From a virus: 27,012 bases of DNA. A program made the position numbers and the translations under genes. The notes below the pieces were generated by a model. The model was not told the DNA's origin, searched no databases, and was given only the letters and a program-made list of their open reading frames with translations. The stretch spans positions 1 to 27,012 of the IMG/VR virus record IMGVR_UViG_3300010354_005932; one strand, given 5' to 3'. This document shows, in pieces, positions 3,059 to 26,460 of the stretch (positions are counted from its first letter, which is position 1; each line of letters opens with the position of its first letter).

Positions 3059-3493
3059 ATGACTTTTGAAGAACTGCAACAAGAAATCGAAAAAGACCTC
3101 ACCTTTGATGAAACACAGTTGGATACCGAATCCCTGCGCATTCCTCAATTGCACAACAAGTATCTCAAGCATTTGTATGCAGAGAAACTTCTGTTGAAAA
3201 AACTACGCAATGATATTGGTGAACTTACCCGTCTGAAGTATGAATACTACACAGGAAAGATGGATGAAACTTCTCTAAAAGAGCGGGGATGGGAGCCTTT
3301 CCAACTCCGTGTTCTTAAAAATGATGTTGAGATGTATCTTGACGGAGACAAAGACATGAATAAACTTCGTGGTCGCATTCAACTTCAAGAAGAGCGTGTG
3401 GATTATATTGAGTCTGTAGTAAAGACGATTGCTAATCGTGGATGGCTCATTCGGAATGCAATTGATTGGAAAAAGTTTTTGGGTGGTGTATGA
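3059..3493 (+). CDS. uvsY: Recombination mediator UvsY
   Basis: UvsY loads the UvsX recombinase onto single-stranded DNA coated with gp32 in T4 recombination-dependent replication. This 144-residue protein has the family length (T4: 137) and the family pattern: a helical N-terminal part with HNKYLKHLYAEKLLLKKL, then ELTRLKYEYYTGKM, and a helical C-terminal part ending in RGWLIRNAIDWKKFLGG, as in UvsY proteins of marine T4-like phages. It is placed directly before uvsW, as in related genomes. No Shine-Dalgarno precedes the ATG; the promoter upstream predicts an almost leaderless transcript. The last codons overlap the uvsW start (ATGA, 3490-3493). Confidence 0.9.
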   Translation: MTFEELQQEIEKDLTFDETQLDTESLRIPQLHNKYLKHLYAEKLLLKKLRNDIGELTRLKYEYYTGKMDETSLKERGWEPFQLRVLKNDVEMYLDGDKDMNKLRGRIQLQEERVDYIESVVKTIANRGWLIRNAIDWKKFLGGV

Positions 3494-5055
3494 CCTTGTA
3501 TCCGTGGGAAGACACTCAAATTGATGATGAATTTCATCCTATAAATACGGATGAAATGAATGATATCAATGTCACCCAACCAGATGCAGTATATCTCAAA
3601 GTCGATTGTGAGCGGGGTGTTGCACAAGAACTTTCTGACTTCTTCACCTTTAAAGTCCCTGGATATCAGTTTATGCCCGCATATCGAAATAAAATGTGGG
3701 ATGGAAACATTCGTTTATTCAATACTTATGACAAAAAACTCTATGCAGGATTAGCAGACTATTTAAGTAAATTTGCACAAGATCGTGGTTATCCTTTCAA
3801 TCTCTGTGCAAAGACTCCATACTCTTCTTCTCCTATGAATCGTGACGAGTTGAAAGATTACTTAAATTCTTTGCAACTTGTAGCAGCAGGAAAAGATATT
3901 ACTCCTCACGATCACCAAGTTGATGCTATCTCAACGGCACTAAACGATCAGCGTTGTCTTTTGCTTTCTCCTACTGCTAGTGGAAAGTCTCTCATAATAT
4001 ACTCCACTATACGGTATCTTTTAGACAGTATTGAAAGTGATACAAAGAAAAAGATTCTACTAGTAGTTCCCACTGTTGGTCTAGTAAATCAAATGTATGC
4101 TGATTTTCTTGACTATTCGCAGAAGAATGGTTGGGATGTAAAGCATCAGTGCCAAAAGATTTTCTCTGGTCAGGAAAAAACAACCAAAGCCCGTGTAATT
4201 ATTTCCACTTGGCAGTCTATCTTTCGAATGAAAGCAGACTACTATCAGGATTTTTTTGCAGTGTTTGGAGATGAATGTCATTTGTTCAAAGCAAAGAGTC
4301 TTACATCCATAATGGAGAAGGCGAAGAATGCATATTATCGAATTGGTACTACAGGTACATTGGATGGAACACAAACACACAAATTAGTCATTGAAGGATT
4401 GTTCGGTAAAGTAGTTAAAGTAACTAGCACAAAAGATCTAATGGACAAGAATCTATTGTCTGATCTCTCAATTGAGTGTATCACTCTAAAGTATCCAGAA
4501 GAAGAAAGGCGTGAATGCAAGGGTATGAAATATGCTGATGAAATAAAATGGCTTACCGAGCACAAGAAGCGTAATAGATTCATCTCAGAAATGGCAGTAA
4601 ATCTAAAGGGAAATACTCTTGTTTTGTTTCAATTCATTGAGCATGGAAAAACACTACATCAACAGATTCAAAAACTTTCTGAAGGAAAGCATCAGGTTTT
4701 CTTAGTGTATGGAGCAACAGAAGCCGATACAAGAGAAGAAGTTCGGCAATTGGCAGAGGCAAACGAAAATGCCATCATTGTTGCTTCCTACGGAACATTC
4801 TCCACTGGTATCTCCATACGCAGACTACACAATGTTGTGTTTGCATCACCATCTAAATCCAGAATTCGTGTGCTGCAATCCATTGGACGGCAACTGCGTA
4901 AATCAGAACACAAGACCTGTGCTAAATTATTTGATATTGGTGATGATTTGAGCATCAAGTCCCACCGCAACCATACCCTTAAGCATCTGACAGAGCGTGT
5001 AAACCTATACATACAAGAGAAGTTCAACTACCGTTTGGTGCGCTTGGACTTGTAA
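3490..5055 (+). CDS. uvsW: UvsW-type recombination DNA helicase
   Basis: Superfamily 2 helicase that branch-migrates recombination and fork intermediates and unwinds R-loops in T4. N-terminal domain: VYLKVDCERGVAQELSDFF matches the UvsW N-terminal double-stranded-DNA-binding region. Helicase motifs in order (residues from ATG 3490): PTASGKS (about 161-167, Walker A), DECH (261-264), GTTGTL (motif III), STGISI, and QSIGRQLR (motif VI). The length is 521 residues. ATG 3490 overlaps the uvsY stop as ATGA. T4 UvsW begins just before the VRIDCE segment, so the Met at 3556 is a strong alternative, giving 499 residues; a T4 late-promoter octamer sits directly before it. ATG 3466 is inside uvsY and less likely. 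Confidence 0.95.
   Translation: MTLYPWEDTQIDDEFHPINTDEMNDINVTQPDAVYLKVDCERGVAQELSDFFTFKVPGYQFMPAYRNKMWDGNIRLFNTYDKKLYAGLADYLSKFAQDRGYPFNLCAKTPYSSSPMNRDELKDYLNSLQLVAAGKDITPHDHQVDAISTALNDQRCLLLSPTASGKSLIIYSTIRYLLDSIESDTKKKILLVVPTVGLVNQMYADFLDYSQKNGWDVKHQCQKIFSGQEKTTKARVIISTWQSIFRMKADYYQDFFAVFGDECHLFKAKSLTSIMEKAKNAYYRIGTTGTLDGTQTHKLVIEGLFGKVVKVTSTKDLMDKNLLSDLSIECITLKYPEEERRECKGMKYADEIKWLTEHKKRNRFISEMAVNLKGNTLVLFQFIEHGKTLHQQIQKLSEGKHQVFLVYGATEADTREEVRQLAEANENAIIVASYGTFSTGISIRRLHNVVFASPSKSRIRVLQSIGRQLRKSEHKTCAKLFDIGDDLSIKSHRNHTLKHLTERVNLYIQEKFNYRLVRLDL
3540..3547 (+). promoter_or_regulatory. Candidate T4-type late promoter inside 5' uvsW
   Basis: TATAAATA is the T4 late promoter consensus read by gp55. 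It occurs here as a perfect match, 8 bases before the Met codon at 3556 that corresponds to the T4 UvsW start. In T4, uvsW is reported to be expressed late, which agrees. It could be chance within coding DNA. Confidence 0.45.
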
Positions 5056-5065
5056 GGAGCGTGAT

Positions 5066-5800
5066 ATGACCGCAGAAAAGTCACAATTTGTAATACTGAA
5101 ACTCCGTAGTGGTGATGAAATCATAGCAAAGAAAACAGGAACAAAAAAAGATGTTCTATTGCTCAATCGTCCCTTGCAACTACAAAGATCAACCTTTCTT
5201 GACCCAAACACAGGAAATGTAAGGAAGAATATTTGTATTTTTAGAGATTGGTTAGAGTTCACAACCCAAATCAATTGCGAAATTCCAAACGACTTTATCA
5301 TTTTTAGTGGAGTAGCAACACCCGATATGGTTTCAAGGTATTTGGCAGAGTTGGATAAATTAGATAAACAGGATAAGACCACTCCTCCACCAATCACAAA
5401 GAAATCACAAAAGTCTGATCTACAGGCAACAGAGGATTTGCTAGATGAATATTTCAAGGCTCTTCAACAGCCGTTGACAGGTGCTCCGCTCCCTCCACCC
5501 CAACAAAGCAAACCACCAATATTACCACCAAGTTTACCGATCAATACTAATATGGTAACGGCAACATTCTCTATGCCACCCGATGTATTCTTAAATATTG
5601 TTTTGAATATGCCCATGTTTGATGGTTGGGGTCAGGATTTGGGCGATGATTCTACGGATATGGATGATGGTGGGGAGGACGATTCCGATGGTGAACCACC
5701 TTCTCCAAAGCCAAAACCACCTTCACCCAAAAAGAAACCCAACAAGGACGAAGATACGCCTCCTGATGGGTGGAATGGTCGCTTTGGGTTCCCTAAGTAA
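5066..5800 (+). CDS. Unknown protein, Sm-like N-terminus and Pro-rich acidic tail
   Basis: 244 residues, no confident family. Residues 7-45 (FVILKLRSGDEIIAKKTG, then VLLLNRPLQLQ) read as a short beta-barrel with the 'lk-l-x-sGdEiia' start of Sm/LSm-like domains, an inference only. Residues 115-180 are linker-like with PPPITKK and PPPQQSKPPILPP; residues 205-240 are an acidic stretch (DDSTDMDDGGEDDSDG) and a PSPKPKPPSPKKKP tail, so about half the protein is probably disordered. The middle holds one hydrophobic helix (PDVFLNIVLNMPMF). AAGGAG at 5055-5060 precedes the start. It sits between uvsW and gp55; a role in late transcription or RNA handling is possible but not shown. Confidence 0.75.
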   Translation: MTAEKSQFVILKLRSGDEIIAKKTGTKKDVLLLNRPLQLQRSTFLDPNTGNVRKNICIFRDWLEFTTQINCEIPNDFIIFSGVATPDMVSRYLAELDKLDKQDKTTPPPITKKSQKSDLQATEDLLDEYFKALQQPLTGAPLPPPQQSKPPILPPSLPINTNMVTATFSMPPDVFLNIVLNMPMFDGWGQDLGDDSTDMDDGGEDDSDGEPPSPKPKPPSPKKKPNKDEDTPPDGWNGRFGFPK

Positions 5801-7651: not shown

Positions 7652-8389
7652 TTGAAAAAGAAACTATTAAATGACATGAAAGAAATGCTGTCTTCTTTTA
7701 GGAAGAACAATATCTCTTTACAAGAAAGACAACAGACTCCCGCTCCAGAAACAGATCCAGAATATGAAATTAAGAATTATCCAAGACTGCTACAATTGGC
7801 TCGTGCTGGTCTAGTTCCCGAGGATTTGGTTTGGAAAATGACCAATGTTCTTAAAGACCCTAAAAAATTCGGTGTATCTCCTCAGATAAGAAATCAATTG
7901 TATGATTTGATGATAAAGACACTGAATTATATTGTAGTGTCAGATCCTGCTGCTTGGGCAAGATTTCGTTCTTTTTTGATGAATGAAGAGTTCAAAGATA
8001 TACTTGGTGGAGAGATATCAAAAATAAATCCTTCTGAAAAAGCAGTAATGATTAGAAATCAGATAAAAGAAAAGAAAGAATTTGTCAAAGAACCAAAGCA
8101 AAAGAAATCAAAATCAATCAATCAAACAACCATTGCCGAAACTATAAGCAAAGTGGAAGAAATCCCAAATAGGACTGATGTTTCTGTTGTAGTAGAAGAA
8201 AAGACCGAACCAACCGAGACTGTACAAGAACCTATCATAGAAACAGTTGATCTTACTTCAACTCAGGAGACATCAGAGAATGGAAGTAGAAATTTGAACG
8301 AAAGCGATAACAAACTTTACAAGGAACTTTCAAATATAGTGGAAGAAGTCTTGAAGAAAGAACTAGCAAAATATTCAATGTATGCTTGA
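7652..8389 (+). CDS. Unknown protein sharing a domain with the next gene
   Basis: 245 residues from a TTG start, chosen because GGAGG lies at 7640-7644; ATG 7673 is an alternative. Residues 45-108 (LARAGLVPEDLV, LKDPKKFG, IVVSDPAAW) align with residues 49-110 of the following protein with a single one-residue gap: AGLV/SGLV, LKDPKK/LKNPDK, IVVSDPAAW/IVTSNPSAY. This shared helical domain is followed by a lysine-rich segment (KEPKQKKSKS) and a long Glu/Thr-rich, probably disordered tail ending in a helix. I recognise no named family. It sits between gp47 and gp46. The leader contains CTACATATTGTAG (7622-7634), a small inverted repeat. Confidence 0.8.
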   Translation: MKKKLLNDMKEMLSSFRKNNISLQERQQTPAPETDPEYEIKNYPRLLQLARAGLVPEDLVWKMTNVLKDPKKFGVSPQIRNQLYDLMIKTLNYIVVSDPAAWARFRSFLMNEEFKDILGGEISKINPSEKAVMIRNQIKEKKEFVKEPKQKKSKSINQTTIAETISKVEEIPNRTDVSVVVEEKTEPTETVQEPIIETVDLTSTQETSENGSRNLNESDNKLYKELSNIVEEVLKKELAKYSMYA

Positions 8390-8414
8390 ACATACAAGTA
8401 CAAGGAGAATAGAG

Positions 8415-9137
8415 ATGGATAAGATTGAAAAGTATAAGAATTTGAACGAACAAGTAAAGAAGATGTTACGACAAGCAGATCAAACTGATCCTTTGTCTCT
8501 ACAAGAGGAAATCTGTGCCACTGCTGCTGAACTATGCGAGGCTTTGGATGATCCCAACCGTGTAACGGCTCTTATGCGTTCGGGATTGGTTGATACTAGT
8601 CGGCTATCCCGTGTTCGTTCTGCTCTGAAGAATCCAGATAAAGCGATGCAAAATGCCGCTGTTCGTTCGGATCTTATGAATATGCTTATGTCCCTTATCA
8701 ATATTGTCACAAGCAATCCGTCTGCATATGCTTCTGTAAAGAAGGGAGCATCAAAGTCTGCTGAACCAGTAGAAGAAGAACTCATCGGTGGTCAAAAGAA
8801 GTTGGATGTAAACAAGAATGGAAAGGTCGATGGAGCAGACCTAGCAGCCCTTCGTGCAGGAAAGAAAGCAGAGGAAAGCGAAGAGGAAGAAGAGATAGAA
8901 GAAGAATGGAAGTCTTTGAAGAAGACTAAAGTTGATCTTAACGCTCTTCGTCAGCAAGGATATAAGATTGCTGTCCAACATGGTGAAGGTGATACGCTCT
9001 ATAAGATAAAGGGAAAGGGTAAAAAGAAGGTTGAGGAAGAACTCATCGGTGGTCAGAAGAAGTTGGATGTAAACAAGAATGGAGAGGTTGATGCAGCCGA
9101 TCTTGCAGCCCTTCGTGCAGGAAAGAAGAAGAGTTAA
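8415..9137 (+). CDS. Unknown protein with two dockerin/EF-hand-like calcium loops
   Basis: 240 residues. ATG 8415 is chosen because AAGGAG (8402-8407) is 7 bases upstream; ATG 8382 overlaps the previous gene and has no such site. Residues 49-110 form the domain shared with the preceding protein. Residues 121-152 and 208-239 are near-identical repeats (GGQKKLDVNKNGKVDGADLA and GGQKKLDVNKNGEVDAADLA, each followed by ALRAGKK). The loops DVNKNGxVDxAD have D1, N3, N5, G6, V8, D9 and D12, the pattern of calcium-binding loops of dockerin type I. Between them are an acidic stretch and a basic KGKGKKK segment. Similar loops occur, as I recall, in structural proteins of marine T4-like phages. Position next to gp46 does not reveal its role. 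Confidence 0.82.
   Translation: MDKIEKYKNLNEQVKKMLRQADQTDPLSLQEEICATAAELCEALDDPNRVTALMRSGLVDTSRLSRVRSALKNPDKAMQNAAVRSDLMNMLMSLINIVTSNPSAYASVKKGASKSAEPVEEELIGGQKKLDVNKNGKVDGADLAALRAGKKAEESEEEEEIEEEWKSLKKTKVDLNALRQQGYKIAVQHGEGDTLYKIKGKGKKKVEEELIGGQKKLDVNKNGEVDAADLAALRAGKKKS
8775..9131 (+). repeat. Direct repeat pair (8775-8870 and 9036-9131)
   Basis: Two ~96-bp copies 261 bp (87 codons) apart, in frame, differing at about a dozen positions, most of them silent or conservative. They encode the two calcium-loop repeats. High nucleotide identity in both arms suggests recent duplication or gene conversion. Confidence 0.88.
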
Positions 9138-16016: not shown

Positions 16017-16640
16017 ATGATACCGAAAATTATCCATCAGATATGGCTTGGAGATCAATCCAAGCGACCAGATAAATTCATTAATACATGGCGTGAAATG
16101 AACCCAACTTGGGAACACAAGTTGTGGACAGAAGAAAATATGCCCAAATCTTGGGTGAAAATGCATTTTGATACTTGCCCTTCCCTAGCAGGAAAGGCAG
16201 ATATACTCAGGTATCAACTCCTCCATACGCATGGAGGATTTTTCATTGATGCCGATGCCGAATGTATTATGCCTCTTGAAGATGATTTGATTGACAACGA
16301 GGCTTTTTGCTGTTGGGAAAACGAGTTTGTTAGACCAGGATTAATGTCTAATGGCTATCTTGCTTCTATCCCCAAAAATCAGTTTCTTTGGGATATGCTA
16401 AATGCAATTTCACAAAGACCAAATATGAATTATCAACCCCTACAGACTTGGGAGATCACAGGGCCACTGCTCCTTACAAAGACAGTGTGCAGCAGTTTGT
16501 ACAATAACATGACAATTTATCCAAGTCACTATTTTATACCTAAACATTATTCTGGACTAGAGTATAAGGGTAAAGGTAGAGTATATGCTCGTCAGTATTG
16601 GGGAACAACACCCAATAGTGGGTTTGATTATGGAACTTGA
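16017..16640 (+). CDS. GT32-like glycosyltransferase (DXD sugar-binding)
   Basis: Transfers a sugar from a nucleotide donor to a glycan; GT-A fold. MIPKIIHQIWLGDQ at the N-terminus, AGKADILRYQLLHTHGGFFI at 58-77 and the D78-A-D80 metal motif are the hallmarks of the Gly_transf_sug (DXD) / GT32 family, which includes OCH1-type mannosyltransferases and capsule enzymes. 207 residues, about the size of the catalytic core. No membrane segment, so a cytoplasmic enzyme. GTGAGG (16003-16008) is the likely ribosome-binding site. First gene of the glycan block, 23 bases after regA. The sugar donor cannot be read from the sequence. Confidence 0.88.
   Translation: MIPKIIHQIWLGDQSKRPDKFINTWREMNPTWEHKLWTEENMPKSWVKMHFDTCPSLAGKADILRYQLLHTHGGFFIDADAECIMPLEDDLIDNEAFCCWENEFVRPGLMSNGYLASIPKNQFLWDMLNAISQRPNMNYQPLQTWEITGPLLLTKTVCSSLYNNMTIYPSHYFIPKHYSGLEYKGKGRVYARQYWGTTPNSGFDYGT
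16219..16243 (+). other. Terminator-like hairpin inside the first glycan gene
   Basis: TCCTCCAT (16219-16226), ACGC loop, ATGGAGGA (16231-16238), then TTTTT (16239-16243). The form is that of an intrinsic terminator in the sense strand, within codons for LLHTHGGFF. An 8-bp stem can arise by chance in a window of this size. Confidence 0.45.
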
Positions 16641-17247
16641 TATCAGAAATATCAATACCTATGTAATTTCATTACCAAATGCAAATGATAGAAGAGAAAA
16701 AATGAAATCTCTTCTGTCTAAATTAGGCATAAAAAAGTGGTCATTTTTTGATGCTATTGATGTTAGGGGGAAATTGCCCTATTGGATAGGTTGTGGTATG
16801 TCTCATAGAGAGGTATTGGCACAAGCAAGTTATCCTTGTATAGTGTATGAAGATGATATCGACACGACAAGTTGGTATAAACCAACTATCACTGTTCCAA
16901 ATGAAAAAATAGTTTATTTGGGTATATCAAAATGGGGAACAAAGTCTGGTGTATCAGATGTAAATGGTGCTAAGTTTTTTGAAACCGATTATGATGGAAT
17001 TTTAGGTGTTCAAAGTATGGTTTCTGGTCATGCTATCTACTATCCCAATAGGAAAGAAGCATCAAAATATGGAAACGGAATAACGAAACAGTTATTGGAA
17101 AACTTAAGACCAATGGATGAGTGGTTCGCAGATGTACAAACAAAAAATGAAGTGTATTGCCTACAACAACCAATGTTCTATCAAAAATGTGACAAGAACG
17201 AAATTTGGACTAACTTTGAGGTAGATCGAAATGATATCATCTCTTGA
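16630..17247 (+). CDS. GT25-like glycosyltransferase
   Basis: 205 residues. YVISLPNANDRREKMKSLL at 11-29 is the start pattern of GT25 lipopolysaccharide transferases ('vi.L..a..R...m...l'); GCGMSHREVL (54-63) matches their 'G.i.c..SH...' step, and IVYEDDID (71-78) is the acidic metal/donor motif. ATG 16630 overlaps the preceding stop by 11 bases and puts the conserved start at residue 10; the upstream ATG 16585 would add residues inside the previous gene. It lacks the C-terminal part of longer GT25 enzymes. Usual GT25 donors are UDP-sugars; here the donor is unknown. Confidence 0.78.
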   Translation: MELDIRNINTYVISLPNANDRREKMKSLLSKLGIKKWSFFDAIDVRGKLPYWIGCGMSHREVLAQASYPCIVYEDDIDTTSWYKPTITVPNEKIVYLGISKWGTKSGVSDVNGAKFFETDYDGILGVQSMVSGHAIYYPNRKEASKYGNGITKQLLENLRPMDEWFADVQTKNEVYCLQQPMFYQKCDKNEIWTNFEVDRNDIIS

Positions 17248-17998
17248 TATAGGATATAACGGAAGATTAGGTAATCAAATGTTTCAATATGCCGCTTTGG
17301 TTGGTTTTGCAACCAAAGCGGGTGTTCTTTGGGCTATTCCAGAGCAAAATTCTAAAATCAGAAGGAAAGTCGGGACTCTAGGATATGAAGAGATGTTTGA
17401 ATTGGATCAGGGATTTGAGTTAAGATACGCTTATCTAGATGAACAACCAAAGTATTCTCATTATGAGGATGGTGGTGTTCACACTTTACCAAACAAAACT
17501 TGCATTTTTGGCTATTTTCAGAGTGAAAAGTATTTCATACACTGCAAGCAAGAAATATTGAAACAATTTACTTTTAGAAAAGAAATCGTTGATAGGGCAA
17601 AAGAAATTGTTTTTGATGCCGAAGATTGTGTTTCTGTTCATGTAAGAAGGGGAGATTATGTCAACAATCAGTCATTTCACCCCCTCCTTGATAAAGCATG
17701 GTATGAGAAGGCAATGACAAAATTTGGTGACGAAAAGTTCATTTTCTTCTCTGATGATATCCAATGGTGCAGAGAACAGTTTGGAGATAGCCATAAATAC
17801 TGTCAAAGTGGAAGTGGATTTGTTGACATGAACATAATGTCTAGATGCAAAGGACATATAATAGCAAACTCATCGTTTAGTTGGTGGGGGGCTTATTTGG
17901 GGGGCAATAAAACTATTGCACCAAAAAAATGGTTCGGTGAATCAATAGACCATAAAAATGATGGCTCTATTTACGCAACAGGATGGGAAATATTATGA
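17231..17998 (+). CDS. GT11-like alpha-1,2-fucosyltransferase (first copy)
   Basis: Family GT11 transfers L-fucose from GDP-fucose. All three family motifs are present: GRLGNQMFQYA at 11-21, the GDP-fucose-binding HVRRGDY at 137-143, and NSSFSWWGAYL at 213-223. 255 residues, slightly below the usual 280-300. GAGGT (17218-17222) precedes ATG 17231, which overlaps the previous gene. It lies directly before a GDP-fucose synthase gene, so donor and transferase are co-expressed. The related second copy at 25630 differs widely, so the two are not a recent duplication. A perfect 12-bp hairpin lies in its 5' part. Confidence 0.92.
   Translation: MISSLDIGYNGRLGNQMFQYAALVGFATKAGVLWAIPEQNSKIRRKVGTLGYEEMFELDQGFELRYAYLDEQPKYSHYEDGGVHTLPNKTCIFGYFQSEKYFIHCKQEILKQFTFRKEIVDRAKEIVFDAEDCVSVHVRRGDYVNNQSFHPLLDKAWYEKAMTKFGDEKFIFFSDDIQWCREQFGDSHKYCQSGSGFVDMNIMSRCKGHIIANSSFSWWGAYLGGNKTIAPKKWFGESIDHKNDGSIYATGWEIL
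17292..17321 (+). other. Perfect 12-bp hairpin inside the GT11 gene
   Basis: CCGCTTTGGTTG (17292-17303) pairs without mismatch with CAACCAAAGCGG (17310-17321) around a six-base loop GTTTTG. It starts about 60 bases after the start codon, in codons for ALVGFATKAG. Weak U-rich run TGTTCTTT follows. A stem this long is rare by chance in 27 kb. Confidence 0.7.
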
Positions 17999-18921
17999 GT
18001 GTATCAAACAAGGCTAAAGTTATAGTTACTGGTGGAAGTGGACTTTTGGGTAAAAGTCTACAAGATGTAGAGAGCGGTTATAATTTCCTATCGTCAAAGG
18101 AGTGTAATCTTGAAAATAAAGATGAAACTCAGTCTTACTTCGATAGAATCAAACCAGAAAAAATAGTACATTTAGCAGCAAAGGTTGGAGGAATAAAGCA
18201 AAATGCTGAAATGCATTACGACTTTATATCTTCAAACTGCAAGATCAATTCAAATGTAATCGACTATGCAGTTAAAAACAATATACCTTTGATTTTTTCT
18301 TCTAGTTCATGTATATTTCCAAACTACTCCGAAACCAGAACATATCCGATGACAGAAGAAGATGTATTTTCTGGTGAACCAGAAGGCACAAATGAAGGTT
18401 ATGCCTATTCAAAAAGATTTGCTGGAAAAATGTTAATAGCCGCAAAGAGGCAATACGGCTTTAACTATACTACCTTGTATTTCTCTAATCTTTATGGAGA
18501 ACACGACTGCTTTGGAAAAGGTGACAAGAGCCACCTAGTAACATCTGTTATTGAGAAATTTCACAAAGCAAAGATCAATGGAGCAGATGTAGTCAAGTTA
18601 ATGGGAACAGGATCTCCAATGAGGCAGTTCATGTATGCACATGATGCTGCTTCTATTCTCAATAGAATAATACAAGAGAATATCTATGGGGAATATAATG
18701 TTGCGATACAGAATAATATGACTATTAGAGAAATAGTTGATGTAGTGAAAAATGTAGTTGGTTATTCTGGAAGACTAGAGTATGATGGAAAATTAGACGG
18801 TGTGTATAGAAAAGATGTTTCTTCTCAGAAATTAATCAAAGTTTTAGGAGAATTTAATTTCACTGACTTAGAAACTGGCGTAAGAAACACTTATCAAAAA
18901 TATCTAAAATCTATAGTATAA
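17995..18921 (+). CDS. fcl: GDP-L-fucose synthase
   Basis: Epimerase-reductase that turns GDP-4-keto-6-deoxy-D-mannose into GDP-L-fucose with NADPH. Extended SDR: VTGGSGLLG at 11-19 binds the cofactor, AAKVGGI at 61-67 and SSSCIFP at 103-109 are diagnostic for this enzyme, and Y136-x-x-x-K140 (YAYSK) is the catalytic pair. GxGxPMRQFMYAHDAA in the C-terminal part fits substrate binding. 308 residues, near the normal ~320. ATG 17995 overlaps the preceding stop as ATGA with GGGA six bases upstream; ATG 17983 is an alternative. Its substrate would come from the gmd gene at 24642. Confidence 0.93.
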   Translation: MSVSNKAKVIVTGGSGLLGKSLQDVESGYNFLSSKECNLENKDETQSYFDRIKPEKIVHLAAKVGGIKQNAEMHYDFISSNCKINSNVIDYAVKNNIPLIFSSSSCIFPNYSETRTYPMTEEDVFSGEPEGTNEGYAYSKRFAGKMLIAAKRQYGFNYTTLYFSNLYGEHDCFGKGDKSHLVTSVIEKFHKAKINGADVVKLMGTGSPMRQFMYAHDAASILNRIIQENIYGEYNVAIQNNMTIREIVDVVKNVVGYSGRLEYDGKLDGVYRKDVSSQKLIKVLGEFNFTDLETGVRNTYQKYLKSIV

Positions 18922-18931
18922 AGGAATAAAA

Positions 18932-19711
18932 ATGCAATCTTCAATATCTGACATTGGTGGTTATCAGTCTTCATGTTTGAGGGCTTCACAGGATGAACTG
19001 TTTTTTCAAAATTTCAAGAGAGATCAGTCATACACTGGTATATTAGAACACTCGACATATGAGCAGGGATTAGGTTACTTAAATGAAATAGAAAATGTTT
19101 TTGGAGATGAGAGTGTGGAATTCATCCGTGAATCTGCATTAGCAAATGACAGATATGGTGGTTCTAGTCCACAGCCATATACCATTCGTGGGCATAACAT
19201 ATCAGTAAGTCCTTCTACACTTCGTTATTGTAAAGTCGCTTCTGATATAGTCTCAATATTCGGAGAAACATCCGAAATGAAGATTTGTGAAATTGGTGCT
19301 GGTTATGGTGGGCAGTGTGTTATTTTAGACTTGCTTTTCGGATTCAAGGAATACCATACAGTTGACATAGAAGAGGCTTGTCTTCTCCAAACAAAATATC
19401 TTAACACAGTTGGTGTTGAAAATCACAAGCAAATATCGTATAAAGATATGAGTAGTCTTTCGGAAAATTATGATTTAGTCATAAGTAATTATGCTTTTTC
19501 TGAGTGTAAGAGAGAGATACAAGATGTGTACATGGATAAAATTCTATCTAAATCAAAACATGGATACATGATAATGAACTTTGTTTGGGACAATATTCCT
19601 GGTTTTCATAATATGATGAGAGAAAATGATTTTAGAGAGAAGATACCAAATCTAAAGTTGGCACAAGAGATACCAAACACACATCCAAATAATGTTCTTT
19701 ACTATTGGTGA
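18932..19711 (+). CDS. Putative sugar O-methyltransferase
   Basis: 259 residues. MKICEIGAGYGGQCVILDLL at about 114-133 is the S-adenosylmethionine-binding motif I (E-x-G-A-G-x-G) of class I methyltransferases; HTVDIEEACLLQTKYL supplies motif II, and YDLVISNYAFSEC the D/N catalytic region. The 'EIGAGYGGQ' and 'SNYAFSE' strings are typical of putative sugar O-methyltransferases in polysaccharide clusters. AAGGA (18921-18925) is the ribosome-binding site. It would cap or decorate a glycan residue; which hydroxyl cannot be told. Confidence 0.82.
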   Translation: MQSSISDIGGYQSSCLRASQDELFFQNFKRDQSYTGILEHSTYEQGLGYLNEIENVFGDESVEFIRESALANDRYGGSSPQPYTIRGHNISVSPSTLRYCKVASDIVSIFGETSEMKICEIGAGYGGQCVILDLLFGFKEYHTVDIEEACLLQTKYLNTVGVENHKQISYKDMSSLSENYDLVISNYAFSECKREIQDVYMDKILSKSKHGYMIMNFVWDNIPGFHNMMRENDFREKIPNLKLAQEIPNTHPNNVLYYW

Positions 19712-19714
19712 TTT

Positions 19715-20536
19715 ATGAACTTTCATGCAATAACAAATGCTTTTTCACACACTCATGGTGGTTGTGCATCATTTCCACCTAAAGAAAAGTGGCACTATTC
19801 ATTACCAAATTCAATAGACATCAATAACCCAACAGTATTTGTTGATAATCAAATTCCTATGGGTCTTCAATTTCCAAAGACAGGAAAATTTGGATGGCTT
19901 TGTGAATCATCTTCCATTGTTCATCATCTAAAGGAGTGGATGGCATCAAATATTTCTCTACTAGAGAAGTCATACGAAAAGATATTCGTTAATGACGAAA
20001 GCCTGCTTTCATTGTCTAGTGTGTTTGAATATGTCCCACCAGCATCAAATATGCCGTGGATCAAAGATTGGGGTGTCTTTGAAAAGACCGAATTAGTTTC
20101 AATTATTGCTTCTTCAAAACGAGAAACAGATGGTCACAGAATGCGCCACGCAATAATTGATTCATTTCCTGGTAAAATTTCTGTGTTTGGAAATGGATAT
20201 AAAAGCATTGAAACAAAAGATGAAGGCATAAAGCCATTTATGTTTAGTTTCTGCATTGAAAATGCAAAGTATGATCTTTACTATACTGAAAAAGTTTTGG
20301 ACGCTGTTGCGTGTGGAACAGTTCCAATTTATTGGGGTACAGACAAGATAAAGACCTTATTTAATCCAGATGGATTTATATTTTTTGATGGAAATTTCAG
20401 TATTTCTAGTCTTTCTACAAAGTTATATGAATCAAAGATGAAGGCTTTGGAAGAGAACTTAGAAATTCTAAAGTCATTTGAACCATCGGATGACACAGTA
20501 CACAGAGCCATAAAAAGGATAATTGAAAATGGATAA
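19715..20536 (+). CDS. GT10-like fucosyltransferase
   Basis: 273 residues with GT-B fold. Residues 175-208 (FMFSFCIENA, DLYYTEKVLDAVACGTVPIY, WGT) are the GT10 C-terminal signature ('F.iEN...D.vTEK..da...g.vPiyWG'), which in alpha-1,3/1,4-fucosyltransferases binds GDP-fucose. KISVFGNGYKSI (154-165) matches the family's 'v.vyG.g' strand. The N-terminal acceptor domain does not resemble known FucTs. Three bases after the methyltransferase gene; last bases overlap the next start. Some GT10 relatives may use other GDP-sugars, such as a GDP-3,6-dideoxy sugar, which this island might also make. Confidence 0.82.
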   Translation: MNFHAITNAFSHTHGGCASFPPKEKWHYSLPNSIDINNPTVFVDNQIPMGLQFPKTGKFGWLCESSSIVHHLKEWMASNISLLEKSYEKIFVNDESLLSLSSVFEYVPPASNMPWIKDWGVFEKTELVSIIASSKRETDGHRMRHAIIDSFPGKISVFGNGYKSIETKDEGIKPFMFSFCIENAKYDLYYTEKVLDAVACGTVPIYWGTDKIKTLFNPDGFIFFDGNFSISSLSTKLYESKMKALEENLEILKSFEPSDDTVHRAIKRIIENG

Positions 20537-21428
20537 AGAATCAATCAATGACATATTGTTTTTCAATATGTTTGGTAACGGTGATCTTCACTATTCAAGG
20601 GAATTTGTGAAGTTTTTTAGTTCAAAGATAGGTCTTCCAGCAAAGTATCATCACAGAAAGTGTTCTGGTTTGTTGAGGGATATTCCTGGAGTTGAGTTTC
20701 AAGGCTCTTTTCCTTTTCCAATAGCAGACACTAACCCTATTGGTTTATTTCAAGTAGATCAGACTTTGTTATTTAGCACTTGGATAGGTCAAGAAGGGTG
20801 CAAGTGGTTAAACCCCGATGGATGCACGATTAGAAACAACTACAAGTTTTATCTTGAACACGCTAAGGTGTTTGGTATACAGATTCCAGAAGAAAAAGAG
20901 TTTATCCCAACAATAGACTATAGCAAATATCACATAGACTCTATCAAAATTAGTAAAGATAAAAATATTCTTATATGCAATGGCCCTGCTTTATCTGGTC
21001 AGTCAAGAAATTTTGATATGTCTTCGGTCATAGTGGCTTTGGCACAAAAACATCCTTCTTGCAGATTTTTTGTCACGCAAGGAATGCCAACACCATTTGA
21101 GAATATAATTGATTTGAACTTAATGATTGACACCAATGGTCTATCTAACTTAAATGAGATATCTTATGTTTCTCTCTTTTGTGATATTATAGTTGGAAGG
21201 GGCAGTGGGCCTTTCTGTTTTACCCATGTAAAGGAAAATCTCTACGACAAAAACAAGACTTACCTAGTGATGGGAAACCAAGAGCGTGAAGGAAATTGGG
21301 TCACTATGAGCGACTATGGTGATCCTAACTGTGCAAAGCAAATATGGATCGACTCTTCATATAGAGTTGAAACAAATATGTTCAATATTGTGGATGGTGA
21401 GATAAATGAAAAATTTGGTAATAGGTAG
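20529..21428 (+). CDS. Putative glycosyltransferase, unclassified (GT9-like traits)
   Basis: 299 residues; weakly supported family. The first half has LFFNMFGNGDLHYSREFVKF, recalling the 'G.GD.....p....l' beginning of heptosyltransferase-like GT-B enzymes, and the second half has NILICNGPALSGQSRNFDMS and FCDIIVGRGSGPFCFTHVKE, where a glycine-rich VGRGSGP loop could bind the nucleotide sugar. ATG 20529 overlaps the previous stop by 8 bases; TTG 20523 is less likely. Neighbouring genes make a glycosyltransferase role plausible, without known donor. Confidence 0.68.
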   Translation: MDKESINDILFFNMFGNGDLHYSREFVKFFSSKIGLPAKYHHRKCSGLLRDIPGVEFQGSFPFPIADTNPIGLFQVDQTLLFSTWIGQEGCKWLNPDGCTIRNNYKFYLEHAKVFGIQIPEEKEFIPTIDYSKYHIDSIKISKDKNILICNGPALSGQSRNFDMSSVIVALAQKHPSCRFFVTQGMPTPFENIIDLNLMIDTNGLSNLNEISYVSLFCDIIVGRGSGPFCFTHVKENLYDKNKTYLVMGNQEREGNWVTMSDYGDPNCAKQIWIDSSYRVETNMFNIVDGEINEKFGNR

Positions 21429-22233
21429 TACATCTCAATTAGGTCGTTATTTTCCAGAAGAATTTGAAAAAATATCTTCAAGAAACATTGATCTATCTTC
21501 ATTAAGGAGAGAATGGGATACTGTTTACATTTGTTTTGCAGAACAAAGAACATATCTTGCTAATGAAAAGGATATGGAAACTCAATTCATGTCTACTAAT
21601 TATGACATGACTAAAGAAATAGTAGAAGAGTTGCAACCTTACTGCAAAAATATGGTTTTCTACTCTACGGCTCAACTGTGGGATGCTTGCGTTGGCCCTA
21701 TTTCTTTGGAAACTCCCTTCAAATTTGAAGAGAACCACTATACACTATCTAAACTCAAAATAACAGAGCGTTTTAGAGACAAAAGTAAGTATCCTAAAGT
21801 CAGTATAGCATACCCCTTTAACTTTAATAGTATACACAGAAAAGGGTCGTATCTATTTGGTAAAGTTTTTAGATCATTGGTAGGCAATGAGTCTATCGAA
21901 ATAGGAGACACTTATTTCTATAGAGAATTGTTGCATCCAAAAATGGTAGTCGATGCAAGTGTAAATCACACAAAAATTGGTAAAGACTTTATCATAGGTT
22001 CTGGTAGAGTTGTTTACATAAATGACTTCATAAGAAATCTTTACTCTTCTTTGGGTAGAGACTACATAAGTTTGGTCAAAGAAGACATCAACACTAAGTC
22101 AAAGTACAGAACAGGAATATTCTATAACGAAACTGCAAATCCTTTCTGCGACAATAGAAAACTTTTACAAATGACCGTAGATGAAATCAAAGACTTACTA
22201 TTCACAATAGAATCTGAAAAGGAAAAAATATGA
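21406..22233 (+). CDS. Reduced SDR epimerase/reductase of nucleotide sugars
   Basis: 275 residues. LVIGSTSQLGRYF at 4-16 is a shortened Rossmann start (GxxxxLG), FYSTAQLWD (85-93) supplies the catalytic Ser/Thr and Y112-x-x-x-K116 (YTLSK) the catalytic pair, as in extended SDRs such as dTDP-4-keto-rhamnose reductase and GDP-fucose synthase. The N-terminal region is compressed. SDRs of this kind reduce or epimerise 4-keto sugars. In the island it could handle the product of the ColD-like dehydratase (the role of ColC), an inference from context. It overlaps both neighbours. Confidence 0.75.
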   Translation: MKNLVIGSTSQLGRYFPEEFEKISSRNIDLSSLRREWDTVYICFAEQRTYLANEKDMETQFMSTNYDMTKEIVEELQPYCKNMVFYSTAQLWDACVGPISLETPFKFEENHYTLSKLKITERFRDKSKYPKVSIAYPFNFNSIHRKGSYLFGKVFRSLVGNESIEIGDTYFYRELLHPKMVVDASVNHTKIGKDFIIGSGRVVYINDFIRNLYSSLGRDYISLVKEDINTKSKYRTGIFYNETANPFCDNRKLLQMTVDEIKDLLFTIESEKEKI

Positions 22234-22583
22234 ACAATAGCGATATTGCACTGTCTATAGAACAAACAATAAAAAACAAAGTTTCTGAGGTATTGAAGAA
22301 TAGAGAAGTTCCAAATTTACCTGATAACTTGATTGCCACAGACAACATTGGAGAAGTGGTAGAAAAACTTTGTATTCTGCATATCCGAACATGGTTTCTA
22401 GAAGACATGGTTGGTGTTGCTAAGACAGATGAAGAGATAGCAAATCTTAAGAAGAAAATTGATATCTGCTTTAAGCAAAAAAGACCACAATATGTACAAG
22501 CAATCAATAGAATGCTTGACTCGGCAATAGTTGAAAACAAAAATTTGGTTGAAGATTCTGTGAAAATCTATAAGGGAAACTAA
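22230..22583 (+). CDS. Small helical protein, DUF4254-like
   Basis: 117 residues, all helical in appearance. LCILHIRTWFLEDMVGVAKT (47-66) followed by DEEIANLKKKIDICFKQKRP resembles DUF4254, a family of small proteins found beside glycosyltransferase genes ('W..ED.ar....d.eia..K..ID..N..R'). No catalytic motif can be seen; a helper or regulatory role in glycan assembly is possible. AAAAGGA (22217-22223) precedes the ATG; ATGA overlap with the preceding gene and TAATG overlap with the next indicate tight coupling. Confidence 0.7.
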   Translation: MNNSDIALSIEQTIKNKVSEVLKNREVPNLPDNLIATDNIGEVVEKLCILHIRTWFLEDMVGVAKTDEEIANLKKKIDICFKQKRPQYVQAINRMLDSAIVENKNLVEDSVKIYKGN

Positions 22584-23749
22584 TGAAAGAACCTATTACA
22601 CTTGTAAGAGATACGATAGCACAAGATGATATTGATTCTCTGATTGATTGGCTCAAGACTAATCCAAGACTAACAAAGGGAATAAAAACAATAGAATTTG
22701 AGCAACAGTGGAGCAATTGGCTTGGGTGCAAATATTCAGTGTTTGTCAATTCTGGATCTTCAGCCAATTTAGCCATATTCTATGGTCTTATACTGTCTGG
22801 TAGACTAAAGAACAAGAAAATCGTCTTTCCTTGTCTTTCTTGGGTAACGACCGTTGCACCAGCAATCCAATTAGGATTGGAGCCTATTCTTTGTGATACA
22901 GATTCAAAAACTTTAGGAATCAATACAGAAGAATTTGAGAAAATCTGCAAACAAGAAAATCCAGCAGCATTGATGATTGTTCATGCTTTGGCATTTCCAA
23001 ACAATATGGAAGAAATAAAGAGGATTTGCGATAAGTATGGAGTGATTCTCCTAGAAGATTCTTGTGAGAGTGTCGGCACAACTGTTGGTGGAAAGAAAAC
23101 TGGTACATTTGGGTTGGTTTCTTCGTTTAGTACATACTACGGTCATCATTTTTCGACAATAGAAGGTGGTTTCATATGCACCGATGACTATGAATTGTAT
23201 AATCTCTTCAAGAGTATTCGCTCTCATGGTTGGTCTAGAGATTTAGATGAAGTAACTCGGCGTCAGTTGCAGATGAAATATGGAATTGATGACTTCCGAA
23301 ACCTGTATACATTCTATCATCCAGGATTCAATCTTCGAGCAACAGATTTACAAGCAAAGTTGGGCATAAAGCAGTTAGAAAAACTTGATGGTTTTTGTAA
23401 AGACAGATGGAAGAACCTTAAACTTTACGATCAATTTATTAAAAATGACTATTGGAAGATAGATGTATCTCAGTTTGAGTTTGTGTCAAATTTTTCATAT
23501 CCGATTATTCATCCAATGGCTGCAAAGATAGCAGAGAAGTTGGCAGAGAATAGAGTCGAGTGTAGACCTCTTATTGCTGGAAGCATCTCAAGACAACCTT
23601 TCTTCTATGATAGATACGGAAAGAAATCGTTTGACTTCTCTGATAAAATCCATGACTATGGAATGTATGTTCCCAACAATCCAACAATGACTATTGATGA
23701 GATAAAGTTTGTGTGTGATATTGTAAATTCTATAACAAATAAAGGTTAA
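22583..23749 (+). CDS. ColD/RfbH-type PLP dehydratase (His replaces catalytic Lys)
   Basis: DegT/DnrJ/EryC1/StrS fold, 388 residues. NSGSSANLAIF (56-66) and EDSCESVGTTVGG (158-170) bind PLP phosphate and ring. Ordinary sugar aminotransferases have 'SF...K.....EGG' with a lysine that forms the Schiff base; here SSFSTYYGHHFSTIEGG (180-196) carries H188-H189 (codons 23144-23149) where that lysine should be. A histidine there is the hallmark of the 3-dehydratases ColD (GDP-4-keto-6-deoxymannose to the 3-deoxy product, colitose/abequose-type pathways) and RfbH. ColD from E. coli also has, as I recall, about 388 residues with a catalytic His near 188. With gmd and fcl in the same block GDP-4-keto-6-deoxymannose is the likely substrate. 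It is not a dead aminotransferase. Confidence 0.88.
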   Translation: MKEPITLVRDTIAQDDIDSLIDWLKTNPRLTKGIKTIEFEQQWSNWLGCKYSVFVNSGSSANLAIFYGLILSGRLKNKKIVFPCLSWVTTVAPAIQLGLEPILCDTDSKTLGINTEEFEKICKQENPAALMIVHALAFPNNMEEIKRICDKYGVILLEDSCESVGTTVGGKKTGTFGLVSSFSTYYGHHFSTIEGGFICTDDYELYNLFKSIRSHGWSRDLDEVTRRQLQMKYGIDDFRNLYTFYHPGFNLRATDLQAKLGIKQLEKLDGFCKDRWKNLKLYDQFIKNDYWKIDVSQFEFVSNFSYPIIHPMAAKIAEKLAENRVECRPLIAGSISRQPFFYDRYGKKSFDFSDKIHDYGMYVPNNPTMTIDEIKFVCDIVNSITNKG

Positions 23750-23757
23750 CATTCGTT

Positions 23758-24645
23758 ATGTTTAATTTTGATAAATCATTACTACAAGACTATATCAGTC
23801 CATCTCAAATACAAAGGTGTTGCAATAAGCGTTGGGGGTCATCTCAATGGGATACTCAAAGAGACAGTGAACTGAAACACGGTGATATTTGGTTTGTAGG
23901 AAGAATGAACTTAAATCTCTTTTTGTTATTAATCTCAAATGACAGATATATGAATGAATCGTTAACTATAGTCACATCTCATGCAGATGATCCTATTGAT
24001 GATGAACTTATGAGTAGTCTACCTCCAAATGTCAAACATATATTCGGAGTCAATACAACATCATTTAGTGATAAATGCACTCCTATTCCTTATGGTTTGG
24101 GGCCAGAAGAATCGCCAGTAGGAATAAGTATAGAGAGAATAAAGGAAAGAGATATTGACACAAAAAGAAGCAAAATGCTTTTGGTAAATTTTAGAACAGG
24201 AACGCATCCAGAAAGACCACCCTTATACAATGCTTTGTCTCTAATGGCTTCTAGATGCTCTTGGATAACAATGCAGAGTGATCGTGGTTTATGGGGTGCA
24301 GGCCCAGAGCATCATTGGTGGATGGATGAATTAGTAAAACACAAATTTGCTGTTGCACCCAGAGGAAACGGTCTAGATACCCATAGGATGTGGGAGTGTC
24401 TTTATGCAAAGACTATTCCAATCGTGAAATGGCATTCAGCATATAGAAACTTTACGGATCTCCCTATTCTCTTTGTTGATGATTGGGGTGTTCTTTCCGA
24501 AAGTTTCTTAGAAGAAAAATATCAAGAAATGACGAATAAAGAATGGAACTATGAAAAATTACGAGCATCTTGGTGGAGAAAGATGATATTGGACAAGTCT
24601 AATAGTTTATTTGAAAATAAACCGAGTATGGAGCATATAATATGA
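23758..24645 (+). CDS. Exostosin-like glycosyltransferase
   Basis: 295 residues. KFAVAPRGNGLDTHRMWECL (196-215) and YAKTIPIVK (216-224) match the exostosin / GT47-64-like signature of GT-B enzymes in bacterial surface-glycan clusters ('f.l.P.G.g.dt.R.wEal..g.iPIv'). MLLVNFRTGTHPERPPLYNA may form the beginning of the donor half. No signal peptide or membrane helix. AAAGG (23742-23746) lies upstream of the ATG. ATGA overlap with gmd. The donor sugar is unknown. Confidence 0.78.
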   Translation: MFNFDKSLLQDYISPSQIQRCCNKRWGSSQWDTQRDSELKHGDIWFVGRMNLNLFLLLISNDRYMNESLTIVTSHADDPIDDELMSSLPPNVKHIFGVNTTSFSDKCTPIPYGLGPEESPVGISIERIKERDIDTKRSKMLLVNFRTGTHPERPPLYNALSLMASRCSWITMQSDRGLWGAGPEHHWWMDELVKHKFAVAPRGNGLDTHRMWECLYAKTIPIVKWHSAYRNFTDLPILFVDDWGVLSESFLEEKYQEMTNKEWNYEKLRASWWRKMILDKSNSLFENKPSMEHII

Positions 24646-25625
24646 AGACAGCATTGATAATTGGAGCAAACGGACAAGACGCATCTTATTTGGCTGAACT
24701 TTTGTTAGAAAAAGGATATAAGGTGCATGGAACAATAAGAAGAAATTCTGTTCCAGAATATCAGACAAGCCGTATTCAACATCTACATGATTCTAATTCT
24801 ATTGAATTACATTACATGGATTTGACAGACACTATTAGTGTGGAATCGGTCATAAGTAAATTACAACCAAATGAAATTTATCACTTGGCTGCACAGTCCC
24901 ATGTTCAAATTTCATTTGAATTGCCCAAATATACTTTAGATGTCAATTCTGGAGGAACACTAGCAGTATTAGAGGCTGTGCGTAGATTTTCTCCACACTC
25001 AAAGGTTTATCATGCTGCAACATCCGAGATGTTTGGTAATTCTTGTGATGAAGATGGTATGCAAAGAGAGACTACACCGCTTATTCCAGTTAGTCCATAT
25101 GGCTGCTCCAAACTTTACGCACACACTCTATGCCATAATTACAGAAATGCATATGGTATGTTTGTTTGTTCTGGAATACTCTTTAACCACGAATCTCCTA
25201 GACGGGGTATTAACTTTGTTACGAACAAAACAGCACTTCAAGCCGCTAGGATTAAAAAGGGAGTTTCTTCTAAATTAGTTTTAGGAAATCTTGAGGCAAA
25301 GCGTGATTGGGGTCACGCAAAGGATTATGTTGAAGGTATGTGGCTCATGCTTCAACAACCAAAGGCTGATGATTTTGTTTTGGCTACAGGAGAAACCAGA
25401 TCTGTAAAGGAAATGGTAGAGTTTGTTTTTACTTATCTTGATTTAGATTGGAATGATTATGTAACTACAGATCAAAAGTATCTTCGCCCAGAAGAATTGC
25501 ATTATCTAAGAGGAGACTCAACAAAGGCTAAAGAAGTTTTGGGTTGGACTCCAAAAATTGGGTTTGAGGAGATGATGCGTGAAATGGTTGATTATTGGTT
25601 AGTGCAAGTCGGGGATAAGAGATAA
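24642..25625 (+). CDS. gmd: GDP-mannose 4,6-dehydratase
   Basis: Makes GDP-4-keto-6-deoxy-D-mannose from GDP-mannose, the first step towards GDP-fucose, GDP-colitose and GDP-perosamine. LIIGANGQDASYLAELLL at 5-22 is the Gmd cofactor loop (usually G-I-T-G-Q-D-G), HGTIRRNS follows, HLAAQSHVQISFE (81-93), ATSEMFG (126-132) and Y153-x-x-x-K157 in SPYGCSK are the catalytic set, and NHESPRRGINFVT and DWGHAKDYVEGMWLML are diagnostic for Gmd. 327 residues, a little short of typical 340-370. Strong overlap with the preceding gene and 4 bases before the next. It has no upstream phosphomannomutase or GDP-mannose pyrophosphorylase gene here, so host GDP-mannose must serve as substrate. Confidence 0.96.
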   Translation: MKTALIIGANGQDASYLAELLLEKGYKVHGTIRRNSVPEYQTSRIQHLHDSNSIELHYMDLTDTISVESVISKLQPNEIYHLAAQSHVQISFELPKYTLDVNSGGTLAVLEAVRRFSPHSKVYHAATSEMFGNSCDEDGMQRETTPLIPVSPYGCSKLYAHTLCHNYRNAYGMFVCSGILFNHESPRRGINFVTNKTALQAARIKKGVSSKLVLGNLEAKRDWGHAKDYVEGMWLMLQQPKADDFVLATGETRSVKEMVEFVFTYLDLDWNDYVTTDQKYLRPEELHYLRGDSTKAKEVLGWTPKIGFEEMMREMVDYWLVQVGDKR

Positions 25626-25629
25626 TCAG

Positions 25630-26460
25630 ATGATCTCTCACAATAAATTTGGATCTCAAGGATACTTGGGTAATCAATTATTCCAATACAGTCTGTTATT
25701 TTCTCTTTCTAAAAAATATGGATATACTGTAGGTTTATTGGATGGTGGATTCCAATTTTGGAATTGTTTTGATATCGTTGATCCCTATGGAAAGATGATG
25801 AAAATTTCAAGTCCACCGATAGACAATATAGTATTTCAAGAAAGATTTGGTTCCTTTAATTTTGATCCATTAGTGTTTGAGTTGGGTGACAACACATCAT
25901 ATATTGGTTTTTATCAAAGTTACAAATATTATGATGAATATAGACAAGATTTGATATGTTCTTTGAAATTCAAAGATGAAATAATAGAGAAGTCAGAAAA
26001 AATTCTCACAGAACTTCCATTGAATAACAAGAACAATATGATTAGTCTTCATGTAAGAAGAAATGATTATACGGTTGATCCAAAAATTTGGGGAGATTTG
26101 CTTGGTTCTGGTTACTACGAAGAGTCGCTGTCTTTGTTTAGTAAAGATAGAGATGTTTTGGTCTTCTCTGAAGACACTGATTACATGAAAAACTATTTTA
26201 AAGGTTCTAGATTTCATGTAATTGAGAGAAAAGGTGGGATTTACGATGAAGAATCTTTAATCTCACTTTACTTGATGAGTTTGTGTAAAGATCATATTAT
26301 TGGTAACTCATCTTTTAGTTGGTGGGGTGCATATTTAAGCGGTAATGAAAAGATCGTTTGTCCCTTTCCGTGGCTACCATCAACCCACCCAGCACCAAAC
26401 AATATACAAAAAGATATTACTAAAGAAGAATGGTTGAGAGTTCCAATACAAAATTGGTAA
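25630..26460 (+). CDS. GT11-like fucosyltransferase (second copy)
   Basis: 276 residues. GYLGNQLFQYS (11-21), HVRRNDY (141-147) and NSSFSWWGAYL (226-236) are the GT11 motifs; the GDP-fucose-binding HxRRxDY pattern is intact with N instead of G. Between motifs it has little in common with the first GT11 protein at 17231. A different acceptor or linkage is therefore probable. The ribosome-binding site is weak (AAGAGA near 25617). Last gene of the overlapping run; a 53-base gap follows. Confidence 0.9.
   Translation: MISHNKFGSQGYLGNQLFQYSLLFSLSKKYGYTVGLLDGGFQFWNCFDIVDPYGKMMKISSPPIDNIVFQERFGSFNFDPLVFELGDNTSYIGFYQSYKYYDEYRQDLICSLKFKDEIIEKSEKILTELPLNNKNNMISLHVRRNDYTVDPKIWGDLLGSGYYEESLSLFSKDRDVLVFSEDTDYMKNYFKGSRFHVIERKGGIYDEESLISLYLMSLCKDHIIGNSSFSWWGAYLSGNEKIVCPFPWLPSTHPAPNNIQKDITKEEWLRVPIQNW

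Follow-up and report, generated by a model that had tools for sequence, protein, structure and literature searches.

A ColD-type nucleotide-sugar 3-dehydratase in a T4-like phage sugar cluster and its candidate GDP-3,6-dideoxyhexose pathway

The sugar cluster and its recurring block

The window, which is the whole 27,012-nucleotide stretch of DNA analysed here (viral record IMGVR_UViG_3300010354_005932), encodes a T4-like major head protein with 50–51% identity to those of Pelagibacter, Stenotrophomonas and Synechococcus phages. Within the T4-like replication region, at 8382–9137, lie two near-identical repeats, EELIGGQKKLDVNKNGKVDGADLAALRAGKK, that resemble dockerin/EF-hand calcium loops. Towards its end the window carries the following features:

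16017–16640, + strand: DXD glycosyltransferase (Gly_transf_sug)
16585–17247, + strand: GT25 LPS glycosyltransferase
17231–17998, + strand: GT11 glycosyltransferase, 33% identical to the O55 colitosyltransferase WbgN
17983–18921, + strand: Fcl/ColC-like epimerase-reductase of a phage-only lineage, with the catalytic Ser, Cys, Tyr, Lys and His kept
18932–19711, + strand: methyltransferase-like protein (weak, under gathering scores)
19715–20536, + strand: GT10 fucosyltransferase-like protein
20523–21428, + strand: u301, a 301-aa protein of unrecognised function that recurs in the block described below
21406–22233, + strand: short SDR of 275 aa with a T88/Y112/K116 triad, Gmd/RMD-like, a candidate C4 reductase
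22230–22583, + strand: u117, 117 aa, weakly DUF4254-like (E 0.0014, under the gathering score)
22583–23749, + strand: ColD-type PMP-dependent nucleotide-sugar 3-dehydratase, an intact ORF of 388 aa with an ATG start
23120–23170, + strand: active-site motif SSFSTYYGHHFSTIEGG of the dehydratase (residues 180–196), with H188 in the position of the aminotransferase Lys
23758–24645, + strand: exostosin/GT47-like glycosyltransferase (weak, under the gathering score)
24642–25625, + strand: Gmd, a GDP-mannose 4,6-dehydratase that would supply the dehydratase substrate
25630–26460, + strand: second GT11 glycosyltransferase, 29% identical to WbgN

The dehydratase is the last gene of a recurring coupled block, u301-SDR-u117-dehydratase, in which u117 sits between the SDR and the dehydratase and overlaps both. 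A Pfam search with u301 returned no match, and u117 had no match in isolate phages. When viral sequences were scanned independently with the SDR alone and collapsed at 90% identity, 52 clusters resulted; 32 of them have the dehydratase, in 30 cases within 400 bp and on the same strand. The remaining 20 clusters, some of which include Gmd, lack a dehydratase within 10 kb, and the SDR may therefore act on other sugars as well. Matches to the SDR were seen in 114 viral stretches, some without a nearby dehydratase, and one lies in the 735-kb phage LR756501.

The dehydratase is not confined to this phage. Isolate cyanophages have homologues, and the relatives on IMG/VR viral contigs amount to at least 80 loci, with 45–80% identity among the matches listed. 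The loci were partly selected by motif patterns. Isolate cyanophages ACG-2014f and S-CAM7 encode homologues with GHH, placed directly behind Gmd-like and Fcl-like genes. Bacterial relatives, with identities of up to 49%, include Rhodobacteraceae, Nocardioides, Flavobacteria and SAR11. In the SAR11 loci (L034–L038), Lys-type and His-type DegT proteins are paired, and adjacent in four of the five. A close viral relative of the window, L002, has in the equivalent cluster (3370–5584) GHMP-kinase, sugar isomerase and nucleotidyltransferase-like genes, judged by eye to be of heptose type.

Public annotation names these enzymes differently. E. coli ColD is listed as an aminotransferase and ColC as a GDP-L-fucose synthase family protein (L166, 7009–9095), and a cyanophage homologue of the dehydratase (L003, 11968–13161) is likewise labelled aminotransferase. 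We found no paper on a phage ColD route, phage colitose or the SDR lineage in a literature search of mainly open-access papers; Gmd and Fcl have been reported in cyanophage S-SCSM1 (PMC9602691). The conserved phage partner genes of the dehydratase appear not to have been described previously.

Family and active site of the dehydratase

ColD, ColC and E1 are established enzymes, and the dehydratase of the window is another member of the ColD-type class. It matches the Pfam family DegT_DnrJ_EryC1 at 3.5e-61. Among PDB sequences, ColD ranks first (5.6e-62), followed by E1 (7e-45) and then by Lys-type enzymes at 1e-29 or worse. The AlphaFold model, with a pLDDT of 96.2, has ColD chains as its closest folds, which occupy ranks 1–12 of the fold matches with a TM of 0.88. 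In a 78-row tree with one ColD reference (O55), the dehydratase groups with ColD and not among the Lys-type enzymes or the Fe-S enzymes E1/RfbH: the clade of ColD and the window enzyme has a support of 100/99 and the E1 clade one of 100/96, while ten rows of Lys paralogues split off at 100/99. The O55 ColD itself has a basal position in the ColD clade, with a long branch. CxC Fe-S cysteines are found only in the E1 clade, in members with the full loop, and are absent from the ColD clade. Tree, fold, motif and the absent Fe-S loop thus agree with the first reading of the gene, which sets it with the ColD-type dehydratases and apart from Lys aminotransferases. Identity to the biochemically known ColD is just 31–34%, so sequence alone does not fix the nucleotide and sugar specificity.

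The motif SSFSTYYGHHFSTIEGG stands exactly at residues 180–196, as the first-pass annotation had it, and contains no Lys. Its first His, H188, aligns with the catalytic H188 of ColD, in keeping with the claim that His replaces the PLP-binding Lys. In the alignment of PDB chains, this column reads YSHH in wild-type ColD and YSNH, YSKH and YNKH in the ColD mutants 3b8x, 2r0t and 3gr9, respectively, and it also holds the equivalent His of E1 (3bcx). The ColD His is printed there as chain number 190, consistent with two additional N-terminal residues in the crystallised chain. Across 182 aligned DegT-fold proteins, the H188 column is His in every dehydratase-type row and Lys in 14 neighbouring paralogues; the His count is biased because the scan patterns favoured HH, but finding the Lys paralogues and six His-Thr rows did not depend on the HH constraint. 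His-Thr replaces His-His in the viral relatives L130, L144, L147, L148, L150 and L155, which retain the catalytic first His. No alignment shift restores a Lys in the dehydratase, and membership in the DegT Lys aminotransferases was rejected, with no catalytic Lys in the PDB alignment, the 182-protein alignment or the tree.

Residues S57, W87, D159, S183, H188, R219 and N250 are invariant in 35 diverse dehydratase relatives. The gene is under purifying selection: the window and L002 proteins share 80% amino acid identity, with a pN of 0.14 against a pS of 0.72. In ColD, whose active-site roles we take from a review, a PMP Schiff base is formed, the His abstracts a proton, the C3 hydroxyl is lost and the product is released by hydrolysis; glutamate regenerates PMP, and no reductase is involved (PMC8987622).

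Both dehydratase types can occur in the same phage. The huge phage LR756502 has one ColD-type and one E1-type enzyme, and ColD-type and E1-type (Fe-S) dehydratases share a single phage record in L005 (9950–11119 and 17508–18809) and in L124 (4621 and 7983).

Nucleotide route and candidate reductases

Gene context argues for GDP as the nucleotide route of the dehydratase. The Gmd named in the first-pass annotation was confirmed: it scores 399.6 bits against TIGR01472, slightly under the curated cut-off of 415, matches PDB GMD at 1.6e-106, and keeps the catalytic TSE and YxxxK. We surveyed 39 related phage records of 42–309 kb, counting Gmd as strong at E below 1e-90 and Fcl-like genes at E below 1e-30. 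A strong Gmd is present in 29 of the 39 and a strong Fcl-like gene in 32; the other ten lack a strong Gmd, which counts against this route, although some records may be incomplete. Not one of the 39 records has an RfbF or RfbG, the CDP-pathway enzymes, that scores over its cut-off, and no CDP-glucose pathway genes were recognised in the window. A Prochlorococcus genome has a ColC orthologue (50% identical to O55 ColC, in a ColC clade supported at 100/100) directly upstream of its dehydratase, which falls in the window's own 39-row subclade of the 78-row tree.

Two genes of the window could act after the dehydratase. The first is the coupled SDR, whose profile scores highest against GDP-mannose 4,6-dehydratases and whose model (pLDDT 94.7) has RMD (6x3b, at just 14–16% identity and a TM of ~0.7) and GMD among its top fold matches. 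Thr88, Tyr112 and Lys116 are kept in the family alignment. The nucleotide-binding motif of the family, GNTSQL, is unusual, and FAEQRTF and NFNSxxR are conserved. Manual reading of the alignment revealed no conserved equivalent in the SDR of Fcl C109/H179, which serve C5 epimerisation. On sequence and model, the SDR resembles GDP-6-deoxymannose reductase and is a predicted candidate for reducing a GDP-4-keto sugar; being RMD-like and without a conserved epimerisation Cys/His pair, it would yield a D-series 3,6-dideoxyhexose. Orthology of the phage SDR to the short SDR beside the bacterial relatives (SDR-GT2-dehydratase) was not supported, the profile matching the bacterial SDR (probability 95.0, 3.8e-8) no better than Gmd (96.7, 4.5e-10).

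The second is the Fcl/ColC-like protein at 17983–18921, which is 31–32% identical to ColC and 33% to Fcl and falls in neither clade. A scan with this lineage, in which ColD was not used, gave 69 clusters; the dehydratase is present in 34 and touches the Fcl-like gene in 32, and the SDR is present in none. The four nearest relatives of the window protein (54–56% identity) touch a ColD-type gene. Since these relatives overlap ColD-type genes, the window 'Fcl' may be ColC-like instead of belonging to a separate L-fucose branch. Among the 39 related records, the SDR occurs in 13 and the SDR and/or the Fcl-like gene in 37; the negative association between the two is weak (p 0.03, records non-independent). 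L098 and L104, of 136 kb and 159 kb respectively, contain Gmd, dehydratase and SDR and no Fcl. The mostly separate linkage of SDR and Fcl-like genes makes the two lineages look like alternative endings for the dehydratase product. As the window has both, its product may be a D-series sugar, L-colitose or L-fucose, or several of these together.

WbgN of O55, a colitosyltransferase, is reported to use both GDP-colitose and GDP-fucose (PMC12723683), so the GT11 and GT10 genes are no proof of L-fucose; the O55 gene is annotated as an alpha-1,2-fucosyltransferase and was taken as WbgN from this annotation and its cluster position. A GDP-linked 3,6-dideoxyhexose branch, as first proposed, has good support from context, but neither a colitose product nor a pair of sugars from one precursor is established. 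As the last reductase is uncertain, so is the stereochemistry of the final sugar.

Proposed pathway and known systems

We consider it likely that the gene encodes a ColD-type 3-dehydratase that probably acts on Gmd-made GDP-4-keto-6-deoxymannose, after which a reductase and a glycosyltransferase would finish and place a 3,6-dideoxyhexose. The computation shows the enzyme family, the active-site His, the predicted fold, the missing Fe-S loop and the linkage of the genes; we infer the GDP-sugar substrate, the chemistry, the reduction and the glycan that receives the sugar as follows. Gmd would make GDP-4-keto-6-deoxymannose, the probable substrate. His188, as acid/base, would expel the C3 hydroxyl to give GDP-4-keto-3,6-dideoxymannose, and glutamate would regenerate PMP, so that the dehydratase would need no reductase partner. 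A reductase of the cluster, most likely the coupled SDR, would then reduce C4, with the Fcl/ColC-like enzyme as an alternative C4 reductase or as part of a second branch. A cluster glycosyltransferase would attach the 3,6-dideoxyhexose to the virion or to a glycan on the surface of the infected cell.

A more specific version, which we put forward tentatively and hold somewhat doubtful, is that aquatic phages have a distinct GDP-3,6-dideoxyhexose pathway of Gmd, the ColD-type dehydratase, the RMD-like SDR and the DUF4254-like protein, with a D-series ending (tyvelose-like or its C4 epimer), and that the Fcl/ColC-like lineage provides an alternative L-series ending. To our knowledge, no D-series 3,6-dideoxyhexose of this kind has been described from the GDP route.

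An equally tentative possibility is that the Fcl/ColC-like enzyme finishes the product to GDP-L-colitose, which a GT11 enzyme transfers, the SDR serving another sugar. The contacts of its lineage with ColD-type genes, the retained epimerase Cys and His, the ColC-ColD overlap likewise present in E. coli O55/O111, and the match of both window GT11 proteins to WbgN speak for this ending. However, in the window it is the SDR that is coupled to the dehydratase, the Fcl-like gene lying 3.7 kb away, and the Fcl-like protein is equally distant from ColC and Fcl. It is improbable that the protein is a DegT-family enzyme that lost its Lys and took on another role, whether as an inactive or regulatory protein or as an enzyme for a UDP- or TDP-sugar: its identity to characterised enzymes is low, but the invariant residues, the purifying selection and a Gmd linkage that persists across relatives point the other way. 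Very unlikely, and already largely refuted, is the reading to which database annotations and viral surveys point, an E1/RfbH-type enzyme for a CDP-sugar: the best NCBIfam match is indeed the RfbH model NF011936, the S-CAM7 homologue is annotated as CDP-4-keto-6-deoxy-D-glucose-3-dehydrase and viral genes have been reported as rfbH (PMC10653327, PMC11295528), but the score of 212.5 bits is half the RfbH equivalog cut-off (423 bits), and missing cysteines, clade and gene context are all against it.

A viral survey in which genes of this kind are mapped to rfbH or 'aminotransferase' would place them in the CDP route, whereas the present data favour the GDP route. If the likely reading of a phage GDP-3,6-dideoxyhexose branch is correct, many phages of aquatic habitats remodel a surface glycan with a rare dideoxy sugar. 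Such a sugar could keep out rival phages, alter grazing or serve to decorate the virion.

The closest known enzyme is ColD of E. coli O55 (PDB 2gms), a GDP-4-keto-6-deoxy-D-mannose 3-dehydratase. The phage enzyme shares its fold, its catalytic His column with His-His, the lack of an Fe-S loop and a Gmd within the cluster; unlike ColD, it is encoded in a phage genome, at the low identity given above, and is coupled to an SDR and u117 rather than to ColC. E1/RfbH/AscC, the CDP-4-keto-6-deoxyglucose 3-dehydrases, have the same fold and catalytic His, but differ in their [2Fe-2S] cysteines, their reductase partner and their separate clade. The 'aminotransferase' genes of ACG-2014f and S-CAM7 likewise encode His-His dehydratases and follow Gmd-like and Fcl-like genes, but are only 32–36% identical to the window enzyme and belong to another subclade, and the SDR/u117 block was not found with them. 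The SDR is like RMD (GDP-6-deoxy-D-mannose reductase) in its SDR fold and Tyr/Lys chemistry, but is remote in sequence, shorter, and has GNTSQL instead of GxxGxxG. Finally, the protein at 17983–18921 has every epimerase-reductase catalytic residue of ColC and Fcl, while it is similarly distant from both and belongs to a phage-only lineage of its own.
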